Positions 2,235 to 43,815 of a stretch of 45,048 nt of DNA are shown one piece after another. Every line of letters starts with the position of its first letter. Within the stretch, counting starts at the first letter, position 1. This DNA is from Clostridiales bacterium (GTDB taxonomy: Bacteria > Bacillota > Clostridia > Christensenellales > Pumilibacteraceae): assembly GCA_022508465.1 (NCBI GenBank), contig JAFLVB010000006.1:1-45048 (forward strand), in the 5' to 3' direction. Position numbers and translations under genes: made by a program. The notes beneath the pieces were generated by a model. It did no database searches, was not told the origin of the DNA, and worked only from the letters and a program-made list of their open reading frames with translations.

Positions 2235-3260
2235 ATGGGTTATAAGTTAAAAACGCTTTTTATGAAAAAGATGATAGCTAAAAAGCAAAAGAACAATCCT
2301 TTTGATTACGAGGCTGGAGAAAATTATGCACTAAGCAACAACGACGATTGGTCGATAAATAACAGCTACTATTTTTCTGCTCACGGTGCAAAAGAGAGCC
2401 TCTATTGTCGGCTTGGCATAAGGAATTGTCACTCGGAAGTGTGGTTTTATTATAGCGACGGCTCCGAGCTCTATGTGCTTAAGGATATGCTATTTAAAGG
2501 CGATGTGCCTCTTAATGTGCATAGAACAGCTTTGGGCTGGAAGGTGGAATATAAAGGTCAACTTACCAAAAAAGACGGTCTGAATGTAAGTGCCGAGTTT
2601 GAAGGCGAGTATAGTTCGAGTGAGCCTCCTGTGGACTTCTTTAGTCATATGCCGCCGATTAGAACTGCAAAGGCTATGGCGGGCGAAAAGTGGAGCAAAG
2701 AATTTTTTGCCGAGGTGCAGAGCAATAATCAGGTGCATTATGAGCAAACGGGCAGGCTTGTAGGATTGCTCAAAATAGAAGATAAAATACATAAAATCGA
2801 CTTGCCGTGTGTAAGAGATCACTCTTATGGTAAGCGTGACTGGAACTATATGAACAATCATTTATGGCTTATGGCGGTAAATGAGACATCACAGTTTAAC
2901 TTTTCAATGGTTTCGTATCCTGCAATGACATTATTAGAGGTGGGCAATTTCAAGAGAGCGAACAAACCTATGGCATTTATGATAGATGCTTCGTACGATC
3001 GTAGTGCCGTAATAACCGGAAGTGCGCCAAATAATTTGAATTTGACTATAATACTTAACGATAAAAGTAAAATTAATGTTGTCATAAATAAGACAGACGA
3101 GGATGCTTATCTCTTCCAAAATGGTGACTATTGCCTTATAGAGGGAATTGCCCAGTTTACAATAGGCAATGAAAAGTATAGGGGCATTTTGGAAGTAGGA
3201 TTTAACAAAGATAAAAACAGGATTTTTAACGGGAAAGATTTACGGAAGATTAAAATATGA
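2235..3260 (+). CDS. AttH/lipocalin-like protein (CrtC/DUF7064-type fold candidate)
   Basis: This 341-residue protein lacks a signal peptide and membrane segments and is rich in beta strands. Its recognisable feature is RDHSYGKRDW near residues 195-204. That resembles the RDHSxGxRxW signature of AttH-like/CrtC-related beta-barrel proteins, which act on or carry hydrophobic molecules. A GAGG Shine-Dalgarno lies 9 bases before the ATG. The stop overlaps the next gene's start (ATGA), so the product is probably made together with the dikinase-like enzyme. From memory, some animal proteins fuse an AttH-like domain to a dikinase domain of this type, which would fit a functional pair. The substrate is unknown and the family call is from motif memory only. 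Confidence 0.5.
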   Translation: MGYKLKTLFMKKMIAKKQKNNPFDYEAGENYALSNNDDWSINNSYYFSAHGAKESLYCRLGIRNCHSEVWFYYSDGSELYVLKDMLFKGDVPLNVHRTALGWKVEYKGQLTKKDGLNVSAEFEGEYSSSEPPVDFFSHMPPIRTAKAMAGEKWSKEFFAEVQSNNQVHYEQTGRLVGLLKIEDKIHKIDLPCVRDHSYGKRDWNYMNNHLWLMAVNETSQFNFSMVSYPAMTLLEVGNFKRANKPMAFMIDASYDRSAVITGSAPNNLNLTIILNDKSKINVVINKTDEDAYLFQNGDYCLIEGIAQFTIGNEKYRGILEVGFNKDKNRIFNGKDLRKIKI

Positions 3261-5647
3261 GAATTTTTGATATAGGCACTTTAAGCGAAGAATTGTATAG
3301 CCAGGTGGGGGGTAAAGCGCGCGGCCTTGATTTTTTGAAAAAGAACGGTTACAACATCGCAGACGGATTCATTGTCACCGACATTGACGTTATAGGCGAC
3401 GATGAATTTGAGGAGATTTTAAGCAAATTCGATTTGCTTGGAGCCGAAAGTGTTTCCGTTCGTTCAAGCGCTTCCAACGAAGACGGCAGCACATTTTCCA
3501 ATGCAGGTCAGTACGAGACATGCCTTGACGTAAAAAGAGAGGGGCTTAAAGGTGCAATCGACAGATGTCTTAAGTCACTTTGTAGCGATCGAGCAGCGGC
3601 ATATTCACAAAATCTGCTTGACGGCGAGGCGGCAAAAATGAACCTCGTGGTAGAGCGTATGATAGACGCGTCCTATGCAGGCGTAATGTTCAGCACCGAC
3701 CCGCTGTCCAAAGATCAAGTTTTGATAGAGGCAGTAAGCGGCAAGGGCGAGTTGCTTGTCAGCGGCAACAGTAGTGCGTACAGATACTCAGTGCCCAAGA
3801 TCGGATTTAAAATTGACACTCAAGACGGACTTAATCAAGATACTTTGGGCAAAATTTACTATGACGGTTTGCAAATAGCCAAAGCGTTCGGCAAAGAGGC
3901 TGATCTTGAGTGGGTTGTCGACAATAACGGAGAGCTTTATTGGCTGCAGATTAGGCCTATAACAACGCTCGACGAGGCTGATATTGATGAGTTTAATCCC
4001 GCTCATTCGCTTGATAATCATTTGCTTACAAGCCGCAATATCGGCGAAATGATGCCGGGATCGATAACTCCGCTTTCTATATCTACCAGCTTACTTGCGA
4101 TAGACTATGGAATGCGCAATATGCTTAGTAAAATCGGTGCAATCAAGAGTATAGATGCTAAGCCTAATTATTATGCGGCGCTTGCTGTCAAGTATCACTT
4201 GTTTATAGATATGTCGGCGCTGTACATACTGGGACAAAAGGTTATGCTAACATCAAACGATGCTATGAATTTGTCCATAATGGGCGAGCATTTAGATTAC
4301 TTCCCTGAGCCTGAAGGTAAAAATGCCTTTTTTCTCGTTAAGTTCATAAACGGTGTTAAGTTTGCCAAATACCTCTTTTCGTCTAAGAAGGCAAAAAAGA
4401 GAATAGTGGAAATATATGAAAAGCTTAACTTCACTTCAGATAAGAACGAAAAGGAAATTTATGACGAAATAACCAACAAGCTTTCGGCAATGAATGATGC
4501 GCTTTGCTGCCACTATATTTGCTCGAGCTTTTCCGGCTCGATGAACAGCGCGCTGTATATGATGGTTTCAAACTGCTTTGCCGATAAGGCGGAGTATATG
4601 AATTTTATTTCTTCGTTACTATCAGATATAGACGGGATAGAAAGCGCAGATATTTTGCAGTCGCTGCAAAACTTGTCTAAGGAAATTCTTTCTTACGACT
4701 GCGACGCTTTAAACTATACCTACGATGAATTGCTTGGTCTTGTAACCGACGAAAACAATATAAAGATACATACTCTGTACTGCGAGTTTTTGGCTAAGCA
4801 TGGTCATCGCTCCATAAAAGAGGCTGAATTGCGCAGTAAGGCGTGGAAGAACGACCCCGTGGCGCTAATGAAGAACCTACATACGGTTATGGCGAGTGGC
4901 ATTACCGAAAAGGACAAAAAGCAATTTGATATAGAAGAACATCTTGTAGGATTTAAGGGTTTTAAAAAGAAGTCTTTGCGCTGGATAGGCAATAATGCAC
5001 GTCAAGCTGTGCGAGACAGAGAATTTTCCAAGTCGAATATTATTAAAGTCATAGACAAGTTTAAGGATCGTTATGCGCTTTTAGCCAAAATTTTGGTAGA
5101 CAAGGGTTATCTTGCTGACGAAGATAGTATTTACTTTTTATCTCACGAGGAAATAGGTAAGCTTATATCCGGAGACGCTTCGCTAAAGCGCAAAGCGATT
5201 TCTCGCCGTATGACCTTTTTGGAGTCGGAGGATATGTCGTTTGATGATATATGCATAGGTACTCCCAAGCCGATAGAGGTGAGCGGAACTGAGGCAATAG
5301 AATGCCTTAAGGGTATTCCCGTTTGCAAAGGCAAAGTGTATGGCAAAGCGAGAATTGTCAAAACTTTTGACGACGCGCTGAAAATCAAAAAGGGTGAAAT
5401 TATGATTGCGCCGTTTACAGATATAGGTTGGTCGCCGTACTATTCGGTTATAGGCGCGCTTATCACCGAAGTAGGCAGCACGCTTTCGCACGGTGCGGTA
5501 GTTGCCAGGGAATATTGTCTTCCAACAATAGTCAATGTAAAGAATGCGACCAAGCTCATAAGAGACGGCGACTATTTGTTTGTCGATGCAAGCAAGGGTA
5601 CGGTCAGCATAATAAGTGAGGAAGAATATTTAAGTAAGAAAAGGTAA
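3257..5647 (+). CDS. Rifampin-phosphotransferase-like dikinase (PPDK_N and swivelling His domain)
   Basis: This 796-residue enzyme has domains in the order of rifampin phosphotransferase. The N-terminal ATP-grasp (about 1-240) carries VGGKARGLDFL, SVRSSASNEDG, a GVMFSTDP motif and LYWLQIRPITT. A middle region (about 245-690) has no strong motif. The C-terminal phosphohistidine domain has H745 in GSTLSHGAVVARE. There is no PEP-binding barrel after the His domain, so it is unlikely to be a true PEP synthase. Known relatives move the beta-phosphate of ATP through the histidine to an acceptor bound by the middle domain. The acceptor here is unknown. The gene overlaps the AttH-like gene by 4 nt and precedes the GT2-PlsC gene by 27 nt. 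A drug-inactivation role is possible but not shown. Confidence 0.8.
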   Translation: MRIFDIGTLSEELYSQVGGKARGLDFLKKNGYNIADGFIVTDIDVIGDDEFEEILSKFDLLGAESVSVRSSASNEDGSTFSNAGQYETCLDVKREGLKGAIDRCLKSLCSDRAAAYSQNLLDGEAAKMNLVVERMIDASYAGVMFSTDPLSKDQVLIEAVSGKGELLVSGNSSAYRYSVPKIGFKIDTQDGLNQDTLGKIYYDGLQIAKAFGKEADLEWVVDNNGELYWLQIRPITTLDEADIDEFNPAHSLDNHLLTSRNIGEMMPGSITPLSISTSLLAIDYGMRNMLSKIGAIKSIDAKPNYYAALAVKYHLFIDMSALYILGQKVMLTSNDAMNLSIMGEHLDYFPEPEGKNAFFLVKFINGVKFAKYLFSSKKAKKRIVEIYEKLNFTSDKNEKEIYDEITNKLSAMNDALCCHYICSSFSGSMNSALYMMVSNCFADKAEYMNFISSLLSDIDGIESADILQSLQNLSKEILSYDCDALNYTYDELLGLVTDENNIKIHTLYCEFLAKHGHRSIKEAELRSKAWKNDPVALMKNLHTVMASGITEKDKKQFDIEEHLVGFKGFKKKSLRWIGNNARQAVRDREFSKSNIIKVIDKFKDRYALLAKILVDKGYLADEDSIYFLSHEEIGKLISGDASLKRKAISRRMTFLESEDMSFDDICIGTPKPIEVSGTEAIECLKGIPVCKGKVYGKARIVKTFDDALKIKKGEIMIAPFTDIGWSPYYSVIGALITEVGSTLSHGAVVAREYCLPTIVNVKNATKLIRDGDYLFVDASKGTVSIISEEEYLSKKR

Positions 5648-5674: not shown

Positions 5675-7753
5675 ATGTATTATATTTATTTAATTTTAAA
5701 TATTTATGTCCTTTTGTCCATTATAACATTAATCCTTTATTTGCCGAGGCTAAATGGATTTCGCTATGGATTAAAAAAGTTTCCGCATAAGGACGCTAAC
5801 GAAAAACGTCATATTGCGATATTAGTGCCGGCGCGCAACGAAAGTTCTGTTATAGGCGATCTTCTTACGTCTATTAAGGCGCAGGATTATGACAAATCAT
5901 GCTTTGATGTCTTTGTAATAGTCAAGGAGGAAAATGATCCGACTATCGAAATAGTCAAAAAGTTTGGGTTAGATGTGACGGTTATTCCGACTCAGCATTG
6001 TAAAGGTGACGCGCTCGACGGCTTTTTTAAGACTCATTCCGAGCAGCAGCTTGCCGTATATGATGCCTTTGTTATAGTCGACGCAGATGGAGTGCTTTCC
6101 CCGTCATATCTCAGCGAGCTTAACAATGCTCTCGACAATCAGGCCGACATCTTTGTAACGCGCAAAGTTGCCAAAAACTTTCTTGGTGATAAAAAAAGTC
6201 GTTCTGTTTTTTCCAACTGTTCTGCGCTCACTTATCCGCTTGTCGATGATCTCGGTAATGCTTATCGAACAAAGAAGGGTATGCCGCTTAACATTTGCGG
6301 ACAAGGGCTTATGATAAGAAGAAATGTCATAGAGGATATAGGCGGCTGGCCGTATAGAACTATGACCGAGGATTATGAACTAAAGCTCGACAGTATGTTG
6401 CGCGGCTATAAATCAATGTACTATCCATACGCAATGATTTATACAGAAGAAGCTATTAGTCATCACGAGACATTTGCGAGGCGTGTAAGGTGGTTAATAG
6501 GATATAAGCAATGCGATAAAAAATACAAAGACACTATAAAAAAGCAAGTTAAGAATAAAAAACATATAAATCGTGGCGAAGTTGAATACTTTTTCGGACT
6601 ATTGCCTTATTTCTTGTTTATGATTGCAACATTCTTGACTGCTGCAGTCGGAATAGCGCTAACTATATACTATCATATTAATGATAATGCTATGTGGAAG
6701 GCGTCGTTAATGATACTTACGGTCATGCCTCTCTTGGTTTTATATGGATTGTTACACTTATGTAGTTGGTTTGCGCTTTTAATATCATACGACGAATTTA
6801 GTGCAATCTCTAAAAAAGAACTCGTGGCAGTTGCTCTTTTTAATCCATTCTATATGCTTGAATACGTTTGCGTTTACCTTGCGAGTTTAAAAAAGATTCA
6901 TAGCAAAGAAGCTGTTGTATGGAAGCAGACAGAGCGAATTACTAATAAGCGTAGGAACAAAATAGAAGTAGTCGAGGGTGTTCATAATACTCTCGAACTT
7001 AACCGTAAATTCCATACGGAAACTATTTCTTATGGAAATAAATGGATAATGCCGGACGAAAATTATCGCTATCGTGAGGCTTGGTATGATAAAATAATAA
7101 CAGGCTTTTGGAGGAGTGTTCTCGCTTTATTCGGTCCGATACTTATTAAAATTGCTTTTCGTGCGCGCGTTGTGGGTAAGGAAAATCTTAAGGCGGTACG
7201 TAAAAGCGGCGCAATTACAGTATGCAATCATTTCCATTATCTTGATACATTATTTGTTCGTCAGGCAATAGGTCACTATAAGTCATACCATACAATGGCG
7301 CCATTTAATAATAAGAGTGGGGCCGGCGGTCATATAATAAGGCATGGCGGAATGATGCCTTTTAGCGCAAATCTTACTGCAATGCGTAATCTTGACGCCG
7401 AGATAAATCGTCAGCTTGCGCGAGGTAAGCGAGTGAATTTTTATCCCGAGCACGCTATGTGGTGGAATTACCAAAAACCTCGCCCAATGAAGGATGGCGC
7501 ATTTCACTATGCGGTAAAGTTCAAAGTGCCTGTTGTGCCAATTTTTTGCACCTTTAAAAAGACAAAGCGTGGAGGTATCCGCAAACTCTATATACACATT
7601 CTTCCCGCCGTCTATGCCGATGAAGCTTTACCACGCAAAGAGCAAATTATTGCAATGAAAGCAACTGCCGAGTCGGAATGGAAAACCTGCTACGAACAAG
7701 CATATGGAAAAAAGCTTGAGTATTTATCAAGCGACTTAAAAAATGTTGTTTAA
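5675..7753 (+). CDS. Fusion of GT2 glycosyltransferase and PlsC-type acyltransferase
   Basis: This 692-residue, two-enzyme membrane protein starts with a transmembrane helix (about 3-22). A GT2 domain follows, with ILVPARNES, the VDADG metal-binding motif, TEDYELKLD and RRVRWLIG (the QxxRW-like site). Three or so membrane helices lie at about 305-405, as in processive-type GT2 enzymes. The C-terminal part (about 480-692) is a glycerolipid acyltransferase with H519 and D524 in NHFHYLD (HX4D) and a FYPEHAMW block in place of FPEG. The combination suggests synthesis or acylation of a glycolipid. It is the last gene before a strong terminator and probably belongs to the two-component operon. Sugar donor and acceptor cannot be deduced. 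Confidence 0.82.
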   Translation: MYYIYLILNIYVLLSIITLILYLPRLNGFRYGLKKFPHKDANEKRHIAILVPARNESSVIGDLLTSIKAQDYDKSCFDVFVIVKEENDPTIEIVKKFGLDVTVIPTQHCKGDALDGFFKTHSEQQLAVYDAFVIVDADGVLSPSYLSELNNALDNQADIFVTRKVAKNFLGDKKSRSVFSNCSALTYPLVDDLGNAYRTKKGMPLNICGQGLMIRRNVIEDIGGWPYRTMTEDYELKLDSMLRGYKSMYYPYAMIYTEEAISHHETFARRVRWLIGYKQCDKKYKDTIKKQVKNKKHINRGEVEYFFGLLPYFLFMIATFLTAAVGIALTIYYHINDNAMWKASLMILTVMPLLVLYGLLHLCSWFALLISYDEFSAISKKELVAVALFNPFYMLEYVCVYLASLKKIHSKEAVVWKQTERITNKRRNKIEVVEGVHNTLELNRKFHTETISYGNKWIMPDENYRYREAWYDKIITGFWRSVLALFGPILIKIAFRARVVGKENLKAVRKSGAITVCNHFHYLDTLFVRQAIGHYKSYHTMAPFNNKSGAGGHIIRHGGMMPFSANLTAMRNLDAEINRQLARGKRVNFYPEHAMWWNYQKPRPMKDGAFHYAVKFKVPVVPIFCTFKKTKRGGIRKLYIHILPAVYADEALPRKEQIIAMKATAESEWKTCYEQAYGKKLEYLSSDLKNVV

Positions 7754-7765
7754 TTTTAATTAAAA

Positions 7766-7792
7766 AAGTTGTCTATAAAGGCAACTTTTTTT
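7766..7792 (+). terminator. Rho-independent terminator after the GT2-PlsC gene
   Basis: An 8-bp stem (AAGTTGTC / GGCAACTT, one G-U pair) with loop TATAAA runs into seven T. It ends the proposed regulator-to-GT2 transcript. Confidence 0.8.
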
Positions 7793-18748: not shown

Positions 18749-21388
18749 ATGTCAAAAAAGTTTGTATATTTGTTTAGCGAGGGCAAAAGCTCGATGCGTG
18801 AGCTTCTTGGCGGCAAAGGCGCCAACCTTGCTGAAATGACCAACCTTGGTTTACCTGTTCCCCAAGGTTTTACAGTTTCCACAGAAGCCTGCACTCAGTA
18901 TTATGAAGATGGCAGAAAGATTAACGAAGAAATAGAAAAACAGATTTTTGAAGCGCTCGCTAAAATCGAAAAGATGTACGGTAAAAAGTTCGGTGATGAA
19001 AACGATCCGTTGCTTGTATCTGTACGTAGCGGTGCAAGAGCTTCCATGCCGGGTATGATGGACACCATTCTTAACCTTGGTTTAAATGATAAGGCAGTAG
19101 AAGGACTTGCTAAAAAGACGGGCAATCCGAGATTCGCATATGACTCGTACCGCAGATTTATCCAAATGTTCTCAGACGTAGTTATGGAGCAGTCCAAAAA
19201 AGTATACGAGGAAATCCTCGACGAAATAAAGAATTCAAAAGGTTACAAGTCGGATACCGAGCTTACAGCCGACGACCTTAAGGAAATAGTTTCGTTGTTT
19301 AAAGCTAACTATAAAAAGAATCAAGGCGTGGACTTCCCGCAAGATCCCCACACTCAACTTCTCGAGGCAACCAAAGCAGTATTCCGTTCGTGGGACAACC
19401 CCCGCGCAAACGTTTACCGCAGAATGCACGACATTCCGTACAGCTGGGGTACTGCCGTAAATATCCAAATCATGGTATTCGGTAACAAGGGCGAAACCTC
19501 GGGTACAGGCGTTGCGTTTACACGCAATCCGTCCACCGGTGAAAAGGGTCTCTTTGGTGAGTATCTTATGAACGCTCAAGGCGAGGACGTAGTTGCCGGT
19601 ATCAGAACTCCCAAGCCCATAAATGAACTCAAACAGCAAAACGAGGAATTATATAATCAGTTCCTTGAAATTACTCATAAACTCGAAGCACATTACCGCG
19701 ATATGCAGGATATGGAGTTTACCATCGAAGAAGGCAAACTTTACATGCTCCAAACTCGTAACGGTAAGCGTACTGCAAAGGCTGCTCTTAAAATCGCAGT
19801 TGACCTCGTTAATGAGGGCATGATTGACGAAAAGCAAGCGCTTTGTATGATCGATCCCAAGCAGCTTGATGCATTGCTTCATCCGCAGTTCGTTGCAGAA
19901 GCACTCAAAAAGGCTAAGCCTTTAAGCGCTGCTTTGCCGGCATCTCCCGGCGCAGCTTGCGGACAAATCGTATTTACCGCAGAGAGAGCTTGCGAACTTA
20001 AAGAGGCGGACAAGAATGCTAAGCTCATACTTGTAAGACTTGAGACAAGCCCCGAAGACATCGAGGGTATGAACGTTTGTCAAGGTATTTTGACAGCAAG
20101 AGGCGGTATGACTTCGCACGCTGCCGTTGTTGCTCGCGGTATGGGAACTTGTTGCGTATCCGGTTGCCAAGAGATATCCAAGATTGATGAGGACGAAAAA
20201 GTGCTTGTTATCAAAGGCAAGACTCTTAAGGAAGGCGATTGGATGAGCTTGGACGGAAGCACAGGTAATATCTATGATTGCAAGATCGATACAGAGCCTG
20301 CATCGCTTACAGGCGACTTCAAGACAATCATGGATTGGTCGGATAAGTATCGCGTGCTTAAGGTTCGCACAAACGCAGACACCCCCAAGGATGCGGCTCA
20401 AGCTGTGAAATTCGGCGCAGAAGGTATCGGTCTTACAAGAACAGAGCATATGTTCTTTGATTCCGACCGTATCATGGCAATGCGCGAAATGATAGTAAGT
20501 AAAAACGTTGACGAACGCAAAAAGGCACTTGCTAAGTTGCTCCCGATGCAGAAGCAAGACTTTAAGGGAATTTACGAAGCGCTCGAAGGCAGACCGGCTA
20601 CAATAAGATTCCTTGATCCGCCGCTCCACGAATTCGTTCCGCACAATGATGAAGACATCAAAACTCTTGCAAAGGAAATGGGACTTAAGTTCGATGAGCT
20701 TAAGAGTACAATCGTAGGCTTGCATGAGTTCAACCCGATGATGGGACACCGCGGATGCAGACTTAGCGTAACATATCCCGAAATTGCAGAAATGCAAACT
20801 ACCGCAGTTATCGAGGCCGCAATCGAAGTTAATCGTGAAAAGGGTTATAACATTGTTCCCGAAATCATGATTCCGCTTGTAGGCGACATAAAAGAGCTTA
20901 AGTATGTTAAGGAAATTATCGTTAAGACCGCCGACGCTATCATCGCAAAGGAAAAGGCAAATCTTACCTATATGGTAGGAACCATGATAGAGATTCCGCG
21001 TGCTGCTCTTACCGCAGATAAGATTGCGGAAGAAGCTCAATTCTTCTCGTTCGGTACAAATGACCTTACTCAAATGACATTCGGTTTCAGCCGTGACGAC
21101 GCAGGTAAGTTCCTCAGCGAATATTACGACAAAAAGATTTTCGAGTCCGATCCGTTTGCTAAGATCGACGAAAACGGCGTAGGTCAGCTTGTTGAAATCG
21201 CTTGCGAGAAAGGTAGAAAGGTAAGAAAGGATATCAAGCTTGGTATCTGCGGCGAACACGGTGGAGATCCTGCAACTATCGCATTCTGCCATAGAACAGG
21301 ACTTACGTATGTATCTTGCTCACCGTACCGTGTACCCATTGCAAGACTTGCAGCGGCACAGGCAGCAATCAATTTTCCTCGTAAATAA
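18749..21388 (+). CDS. ppdK: Pyruvate, phosphate dikinase
   Basis: This 879-residue enzyme interconverts pyruvate, ATP and phosphate with PEP, AMP and pyrophosphate, a central glycolytic and gluconeogenic step in many anaerobes. The ATP-grasp part (about 1-340) has GGKGANLAEMTNLGLPVPQGF and SVRSGARASMPGMMDTILNLG. The swivelling domain has the phospho-histidine in GGMTSHAAVVARG. The C-terminal PEP/pyruvate barrel has GTMIEIPRAAL, FSFGTNDLTQM and the catalytic cysteine in GICGEHGGDP. The length is typical (about 875-880). Codon use looks more biased than in its neighbours, as expected for a highly expressed gene. It has its own promoter. Confidence 0.98.
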   Translation: MSKKFVYLFSEGKSSMRELLGGKGANLAEMTNLGLPVPQGFTVSTEACTQYYEDGRKINEEIEKQIFEALAKIEKMYGKKFGDENDPLLVSVRSGARASMPGMMDTILNLGLNDKAVEGLAKKTGNPRFAYDSYRRFIQMFSDVVMEQSKKVYEEILDEIKNSKGYKSDTELTADDLKEIVSLFKANYKKNQGVDFPQDPHTQLLEATKAVFRSWDNPRANVYRRMHDIPYSWGTAVNIQIMVFGNKGETSGTGVAFTRNPSTGEKGLFGEYLMNAQGEDVVAGIRTPKPINELKQQNEELYNQFLEITHKLEAHYRDMQDMEFTIEEGKLYMLQTRNGKRTAKAALKIAVDLVNEGMIDEKQALCMIDPKQLDALLHPQFVAEALKKAKPLSAALPASPGAACGQIVFTAERACELKEADKNAKLILVRLETSPEDIEGMNVCQGILTARGGMTSHAAVVARGMGTCCVSGCQEISKIDEDEKVLVIKGKTLKEGDWMSLDGSTGNIYDCKIDTEPASLTGDFKTIMDWSDKYRVLKVRTNADTPKDAAQAVKFGAEGIGLTRTEHMFFDSDRIMAMREMIVSKNVDERKKALAKLLPMQKQDFKGIYEALEGRPATIRFLDPPLHEFVPHNDEDIKTLAKEMGLKFDELKSTIVGLHEFNPMMGHRGCRLSVTYPEIAEMQTTAVIEAAIEVNREKGYNIVPEIMIPLVGDIKELKYVKEIIVKTADAIIAKEKANLTYMVGTMIEIPRAALTADKIAEEAQFFSFGTNDLTQMTFGFSRDDAGKFLSEYYDKKIFESDPFAKIDENGVGQLVEIACEKGRKVRKDIKLGICGEHGGDPATIAFCHRTGLTYVSCSPYRVPIARLAAAQAAINFPRK

Positions 21389-42526: not shown

Positions 42527-42555
42527 AAAGGCACATTCAAACGAATGTGCCTTTT
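42527..42555 (+). terminator. Strong terminator after clpX
   Basis: A perfect 12-bp stem (AAAGGCACATTC / GAATGTGCCTTT) with loop AAAC is followed by T. It ends only a few bases before the Rhs-tip reading frame. The GTG start proposed by the track at 42547 lies inside this stem. Confidence 0.9.
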
Positions 42556-42558
42556 CTA

Positions 42559-43815
42559 ATGGAATTAGGACTATATTACATAAATGGTCGTTGGTATGAT
42601 CCGGAAATCATGCAATATCTGAATGCGGACAGTCCTGAAAACATAATAGCTCTTGCAAATGTGCTTAATTCGCTTGACAGAAATGCAATAACAGTAGCTA
42701 ATATAATTAGCTTTGATATTAATAGCGATACTATATTTACTTCTGGAGAGTATTCTCCTGATCCATATGACGAAAATGCCGATAAAACTTGGTGGCAGTT
42801 ACATTGGAAGAAAGTTGTTCAGTGGGTTGCTTTTGCGATTGCTGTACTTGCAACAATAATAGTAACAATTATAAATCCTGCGGCAGGAGCATCAATGGCA
42901 TTATACTGCCTAAAGGCTTCGATAAGCGGAATTATTATAGGCGGCGTAGTGGGTGCAATAACAAGCATAGCACAAGGCAAAAACATATGGGAAGGAATTC
43001 TGACAGGGGCATGGTATGGATTTATGAACGCTTATACCACTGCTGCAGTAATGTATGGTATAAGTGCTGCTGCTAATGCCATGTCAAGTACTGTAAATAA
43101 AGCAAAACCATGTGATGGTGCATGCTTCATAGCGGGAACTTTGGTATTATGCAAAGATCAAGACGGTAATGAGTGTCATAAGCCTATAGAAGAAATTGAA
43201 GTAGGTGATTATGTATGGGCGTATAACGAAGAAACTGGTGAAAGCGATTGGAAGCCCGTTTTAAGACTGTTCCGTAATGAGACTAAAGAATGGTATCATG
43301 TTTTCGCAGCAGGAGAAGAAATTGTTTGCACACCAAATCATCCATTCTATGTAGTAGACAAAGGTTTTGTTGAAGCAAAAGATCTAAAAATATTTGATAT
43401 TCTATTGCAATCTGATGGAACACATGCTATAATAAAAGACATAGATGTTGAAAAGCTCGAAAAAGCAGAAACAACATATAACTTTGAGGTAGCAGATTTC
43501 CATACTTATTATGTAACTGAAAGTTCTATTTTAGTCCATAATAAATGTCCAGCTGGTTCACCGCTACCTAATGAGGGATTACCCAATTCGACTGCTTTGC
43601 GATATGATGTAGAAGGAAATTTATATACAGCAAAAACCTATGGAGCAGATGGAAGAGTCGTTGCAAGGATAGATTTTCAAGGTAAACCTCATTATGCTGT
43701 GGATGTTGGGAAATCTATTATTCCTCACGTTCACCCAATTGTTTATGATTTAGAAATATATTATAGAGAATTAAATGCAGTTTCATTGCAATATTATATA
43801 GGGAGTTTATTATGA
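42559..43815 (+). CDS. 5'-truncated Rhs tip with Hint domain and C-terminal toxin candidate
   Basis: The frame opens with GLYYINGRWYDPEIMQYLNADSPENI, the closing motif of an Rhs/YD-repeat core, but no YD repeats precede it. A hydrophobic linker (about 88-140) follows. A Hint (intein-like) pretoxin domain then starts at Cys189 with CFIAGTLV and contains PIEEIEVGDYVWAYNEETGE, CTPNHPFYV, YNFEVADFHTYYV and the terminal HN (327-328). The last 90 residues, with GADGRVVARIDFQG and HVHP, are the candidate toxin. ATG 42559 has no ribosome binding site or promoter and abuts the clpX terminator. It is probably a displaced, silent orphan tip. Its stop overlaps the next gene by 4 nt. Confidence 0.8.
   Translation: MELGLYYINGRWYDPEIMQYLNADSPENIIALANVLNSLDRNAITVANIISFDINSDTIFTSGEYSPDPYDENADKTWWQLHWKKVVQWVAFAIAVLATIIVTIINPAAGASMALYCLKASISGIIIGGVVGAITSIAQGKNIWEGILTGAWYGFMNAYTTAAVMYGISAAANAMSSTVNKAKPCDGACFIAGTLVLCKDQDGNECHKPIEEIEVGDYVWAYNEETGESDWKPVLRLFRNETKEWYHVFAAGEEIVCTPNHPFYVVDKGFVEAKDLKIFDILLQSDGTHAIIKDIDVEKLEKAETTYNFEVADFHTYYVTESSILVHNKCPAGSPLPNEGLPNSTALRYDVEGNLYTAKTYGADGRVVARIDFQGKPHYAVDVGKSIIPHVHPIVYDLEIYYRELNAVSLQYYIGSLL

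Follow-up and report, generated by a model that had tools for sequence, protein, structure and literature searches.

Small-molecule dikinases form a large family, for most clades of which no acceptor is known (PMC4844700). In rifampin phosphotransferase (Rph) the half-reactions need K22, R117 and T136 and then R666 and E667 (with K670) and H825; distant dikinase clades retain the Arg-Glu-Lys set and are predicted to use other substrates, and one distant-clade Clostridium difficile enzyme conferred no rifampin resistance (PMC4844700). A kinase and a separate lyase act in succession in anaerobic sterol degradation, 25-hydroxysteroid kinase (25-HSK) first and 25-phosphosteroid lyase second (PMC8449060, PMC7411048, PMC11061730), such that phosphorylation turns a poor leaving group into a good one; no lyase candidate is reported near the 25-HSK gene (PMC8449060). 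Here we describe a pair of overlapping genes in a 45,048-nucleotide (nt) stretch of a Clostridiales bacterium contig (JAFLVB010000006.1; the window), in which a small-molecule dikinase is coupled to an AttH-fold protein. We tentatively favor, at somewhat less than even confidence, the reading that the two genes form one ATP-driven enzyme system, kinase then lyase, that dehydrates a hydrophobic alcohol. Both folds are already known; this strictly paired, catalytically intact couple ties the dikinase family to the unassigned DUF7065/DUF7064 proteins and makes one question of two unknowns.

Both genes are transcribed rightwards (+ strand). The first (attH; 2235–3260) encodes a 341-residue AttH-fold protein of the DUF7065+DUF7064 type, a proposed phosphoester lyase or acceptor-handling partner, assigned from its open reading frame (ORF), AlphaFold and Foldseek, Pfam matches of its relatives and a profile match. 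The second (3257–5647) encodes a three-domain small-molecule dikinase of 796 residues, assigned from its ORF, Pfam, and sequence and fold matches. The end of attH and the start of the dikinase gene share the four nucleotides ATGA (3257–3260); the coordinates and the 4-nt overlap given in an earlier note on this DNA, made from the sequence alone, are exact. The functional coupling proposed in that note is supported by comparison with other genomes, where adjacency occurs far beyond chance. The genes are adjacent and on the same strand in 59 of the 60 loci with both identified, always in the order attH then dikinase, and the 4-nt overlap is common to 45 of these 59 pairs. In the sole non-adjacent locus (L014) the attH 3′ end occurs a second time, joined to the dikinase through the usual ATGA, and a later insertion or duplication therefore split that pair.

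The two partners are also co-inherited. Their pairwise distances are correlated with r 0.98 across the 59 pairs and r 0.92 across 22 diverse pairs, and no permutation gave a value as high. Dikinases of the pairs cluster in the phylogeny (SH-like approximate likelihood-ratio test, SH-aLRT, 90), distinct from a myxobacterial group that lacks AttH. Separation from AttH occurred twice later, in G504 and in G064; in G504 both kinds of gene are present and unlinked. In Myxococcota three further AttH genes of the close type all lie beside dikinases. Most distant AttH proteins of that phylum are not beside a dikinase, the two exceptions being L234 (1433–5133) and L235 (5869–9181), in which distant DUF7065/7064-type proteins stand directly ahead of dikinases of a different branch; this suggests a second form of AttH-dikinase coupling, and that coupling arose or persisted more widely. 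Unpaired myxobacterial dikinases (L227–L230) have a conserved gene neighborhood that includes a luciferase-like oxidoreductase and, judged by eye, apparent DUF1015 and quinone-reductase-like proteins.

The pair is found in Clostridia, Bacteroidota, Acholeplasmatales and Myxococcota, with many of the hosts coming from animal guts, and its distribution is patchy: it is present in 11 of 74 species of the window's family, 22 of 104 in one Bacteroidales family (AttH counted) and one of 399 genomes spread across the phylum. The window dikinase has its closest relative (L047, 68%) in a different genus, which fits horizontal transfer. A search of plasmids and viral contigs for the pair gave no matches, and a mobile element was rejected on this ground; anti-phage defence was likewise rejected, PADLOC giving no match. 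The earlier note mentioned fused forms of these domains in animals. No ORF combining both halves is present among the bacterial loci fetched, and two long AttH ORFs (L023 and L025) considered as fusions were rejected because they look like upstream ORF extensions. The openly accessible literature, which is not all the literature, yielded no description of an AttH-dikinase pair or of an animal fusion.

The dikinase contains PPDK_N and PEP-utilizers domains and lacks PEP-utilizers_C, the phosphoenolpyruvate (PEP) barrel. Its structural model, of moderate confidence (predicted local distance difference test, pLDDT, 76), matches Listeria Rph over its full length by Foldseek (E 1.7e-30, 20% identity), and Rph (PDB 5FBS/5HV1) is its best solved sequence match, too; the domain order is that of Rph, as the earlier note had described. 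The ATP-grasp domain (about residues 1–235; 3257–3961) carries K20, R69, T88 and E218, corresponding to Rph K22, R117, T136 and E297. The middle, or acceptor, domain (about residues 245–680; 3989–5296) carries R588-E589-K592 (5018–5032), corresponding to the catalytic Rph R666-E667-K670, and the swivel phosphohistidine domain (residues 683–786; 5303–5614) carries the catalytic H745 (5489–5491), corresponding to Rph H825. K20, R69, R588, E589, K592 and H745 are invariant across the pairs wherever they can be aligned, as is T88 apart from a Ser in four pairs. This complete catalytic set gives good support to a predicted reaction in which ATP and an acceptor hydroxyl would yield AMP, inorganic phosphate (Pi) and a phosphoester. 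A canonical pyruvate phosphate dikinase (PPDK) with a PEP barrel is encoded by a separate gene in the window (18749–21388), and the paired dikinase is therefore not the housekeeping enzyme.

The earlier note also anticipated that the dikinase is not a standard Rph, and the comparison of its middle domain with the rifampin pocket agrees. The Rph rifampin contacts Gln336, Gln337, Tyr351 and Thr354 are replaced by G263, E264, S278 and A281, a comparison (contacts from PMC4844700) that covers the alignable residues, the remaining contacts (356–479) lying in stretches that do not align. The NCBIfam model for Rph (NF041857) scores 217.1 bits against a curated cut-off of 999. A standard Rph identity was rejected because the aligned contacts are lost and this score is far under the cut-off; the near-obligatory AttH neighbor is a further difference from Rph. 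The window dikinase fits the picture of the distant non-rifampin clades. Its kinship to Rph and its patchy distribution would also suit a kinase for detoxification of, or resistance to, a hydrophobic drug or plant compound. However, with the aligned rifampin contacts lost, no plasmid or viral copies found and a deep co-inheritance with AttH that is unusual for a resistance gene, we consider that role improbable.

Other members of the family differ from the pair in organization. HpeHI, PpsAB and CreHI share the histidine mechanism on small molecules, but they are phenolic dikinases of aromatic-degradation pathways with ATP-grasp and acceptor subunits split and no AttH partner described (PMC12167813). 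The prodiginine ligases PigC and RedH have the same dikinase architecture as the window protein, and RedH is among its best-scoring functionally named families, outscoring the Rph model at 243.9 bits; however, neither RedH (cut-off 1350) nor PigC (229.2 bits, cut-off 1300) comes near its threshold. PigC and RedH act in pigment gene clusters. By analogy the dikinase could be an activating ligase, in which one partner is phosphorylated, AttH steers a condensation and phosphate is lost. The RedH score and the presence of pericyclases within the AttH fold lean towards such a role, but there is no biosynthetic cluster around the pair, the neighbors differing by locus, and we regard it as very unlikely.

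The AlphaFold model of the AttH protein (pLDDT 94.3) matches AttH NE1406 (PDB 2ICH) by Foldseek with E 1.9e-8, and also kievitone hydratase and the pericyclases Phm7, Fsa2 and CghA. These share its two-domain lipocalin-like fold but are only 8–11% identical to it, and to our knowledge none works with a dikinase. As a single sequence the window protein falls below the Pfam cut-off for DUF7065 (E 0.004, 17.6 bits against 27). Its relatives match DUF7064, DUF7065 and the Rv3169 family, with DUF7064 found in 19 of 20 aligned relatives (best 5.7e-14) and scoring 48.2 bits in L073, 46.8 in L156 and 31.6 in L158 against a cut-off of 24.7, and the AttH-like assignment of the earlier note stands. The RDHSYGKRDW motif to which that note drew attention comprises residues 194–203 (2814–2843), and its aspartate, D195 (codon 2817–2819), is kept in 67 of 68 AttH sequences. 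The polar residues S44, R59, E68, E170, Q171, R194, R201 and E320 are invariant. The sole D195 exception (L076) has D195T together with S197A, W203L and W211R, and its genome (G078, 97% complete) contains AttH and no detectable dikinase. Although a single case, it shows the pattern expected if a shared function had been lost.

The N-terminal helix of AttH is strongly basic (net +3 to +9) in all 20 aligned relatives. An amphipathic membrane helix was rejected, its hydrophobic moment being low and under that of most shuffles in nearly all relatives. These features bear on the model of the earlier note, in which AttH is a non-enzymatic carrier that extracts a lipid-like acceptor from the membrane for delivery to the dikinase. 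The lipocalin-like double barrel, the basic helix and the lipid-gene neighbors in Clostridia are as a carrier would have them, but the invariant polar set plus D195 resembles an active site and the helix is not amphipathic; we think a carrier unlikely.

Comparison with solved sequences points instead to an enzyme. The best match of the AttH profile is 25-phosphosteroid lyase (9fzn; E 8.6e-5). An intermediate profile of myxobacterial DUF7065/7064 proteins matches the lyase with E 3.6e-9 and the window AttH family with an hhalign probability of 99.6%. D195 aligns with D176 of the lyase, the motif aspartate of its RDxSWGxR, and PDB 9g4c is the lyase with D176N at this position. The two proteins have the RDxSxGxR motif in common and are kin in sequence, motif aspartate included, although the kinship is distant and we do not claim membership. 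On this kinship, enzymatic action of AttH on the phospho-product is more likely than a carrier role. An alternative order of events has AttH acting first, as a hydratase or cyclase that makes a hydroxyl on an isoprenoid-like compound, which the dikinase then phosphorylates to trap the product. Kievitone hydratase is among the nearest folds, the gene order is constantly attH then dikinase, and HpeHI, PpsAB and Rph show that members of the dikinase family can place phosphate on the hydroxyls of small molecules, many of them hydrophobic (PMC12167813, PMC4844700). The nearest solved sequence match, however, is a phosphate lyase and no hydratase, which leaves AttH-first chemistry doubtful.

In the kinase-then-lyase reading that we favor, the β-phosphate of ATP would pass to His745 of the dikinase, the swivel domain would carry it to the middle domain, and R588, E589 and K592 would assist its transfer to the acceptor hydroxyl to give R-O-P, AMP and Pi. 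From the distant kinship to 25-phosphosteroid lyase and the kinase-lyase precedent, we infer that the AttH-fold partner then admits the phosphoester into its two-barrel cavity, where D195 of the RDxSxGxR motif would promote elimination of phosphate with formation of a double bond, in the manner of 25-phosphosteroid lyase. The net reaction would be an ATP-dependent dehydration of R-OH to an alkene. Phosphorylation of a hydrophobic compound, which the earlier note proposed, is probably not the end point, and the lipid-like nature of the compound is only hinted at by clostridial neighbors. Least certain of all is the substrate, likely an alcohol of membrane-lipid-like, isoprenoid or sterol-like type. 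Stated in full, as a translationally coupled two-gene ATP-dependent dehydratase whose dikinase forms AMP and whose AttH-fold partner is a phosphoester lyase, present in at least four phyla with many gut hosts and acting on a lipid-like alcohol, the proposal is somewhat less likely than not.

If correct, kinase-lyase action would be a second, unrelated kinase solution to the ATP-driven dehydration of hydrophobic alcohols, relevant to bacteria of the gut and rumen, habitats in which the conversion of sterols and terpenoids is important; it would also give the small-molecule dikinase family a new use and the DUF7065/DUF7064 proteins a function. The parallel with the sterol system lies in a kinase followed by a separate phosphate lyase on a hydrophobic alcohol, but 25-HSK forms ADP and does not resemble the dikinases, and the window kinase gene overlaps that of its partner by 4 nt.

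Several observations weigh against this reading. The known phosphosteroid kinase is not a dikinase, and the lyase match is distant: no individual stretch passes alone in the 8.6e-5 search, and with a narrower, closer-knit profile (A3) the match falls to E 0.09. A catalytic role of D176 is inferred from its choice for mutation by the depositors of 9g4c, and the AttH fold, which also includes hydratases and pericyclases, is insufficient by itself to indicate a lyase. Some dikinases of the same clade lack a detectable AttH: a search for AttH in clostridial genome G064 (97% complete), which has four dikinases of the pair clade (L221–L224), detected none. The link between loss of the aspartate and loss of the dikinase is a single case. 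Finally, the lean towards lipid genes among neighbors is absent in Bacteroidales loci and was noticed post hoc, without a formal background rate.

The earlier note suggested a check for conserved neighbors; the pair itself is kept across genomes and no fixed third gene lies beside it, neighbors varying between loci. Clostridial neighbors include a GT2-PlsC fusion (window), PlsC (L077), a PAP2 phosphatase (L078, L079 and L081), a DegV/FakB fatty-acid-binding protein (L003 and L004) and DUF1295 (L002, second gene downstream), which hint at a lipid-like substrate. In G038 and G010, two genomes from the family of the window, a DUF3419 gene is enclosed by dikinases of a more distant type; in L225 (582–6493) and L226 (6496–10555) two dikinases of another branch flank this gene, with 8-nt overlaps in L225. 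DUF3419 includes the BtaA betaine-lipid enzymes, and these dikinases are possibly another lipid dikinase system. A role as stand-in for an undecaprenol/diacylglycerol kinase was rejected: DgkA (PF01219) is absent in all 14 relatives tested, whether the pair is present or not, and there is therefore no correlation.

In the window the pair is preceded by an OmpR-type response regulator gene (535–1203) and a HAMP histidine kinase gene (1200–2207) that ends 27 nt before attH, and is followed 27 nt after the dikinase by a gene for a 692-residue fusion of a GT2 glycosyltransferase and a PlsC-type acyltransferase (5675–7753); all three are rightwards transcribed (+ strand) and assigned from their ORFs and Pfam. 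A terminator-like hairpin with a T run (7762–7791, + strand) lies 3′ of the GT2-PlsC gene, a consensus match of a kind no commoner in the window than in shuffles. Given this layout and the hairpin, the five genes probably form a single transcript with GT2-PlsC last. The response regulator and histidine kinase, which also precede the pair in two congeneric genomes, are a probable regulator on the transcript of the pair; they stand ahead of it only within the window's genus. By eye the histidine kinase appears to have two transmembrane stretches and a very short outside loop, resembling intramembrane-sensing kinases. Elsewhere in the window, 42547–43815 encodes a protein resembling polymorphic toxins, in which Pfam identifies pretoxin HINT and Ntox24 domains.

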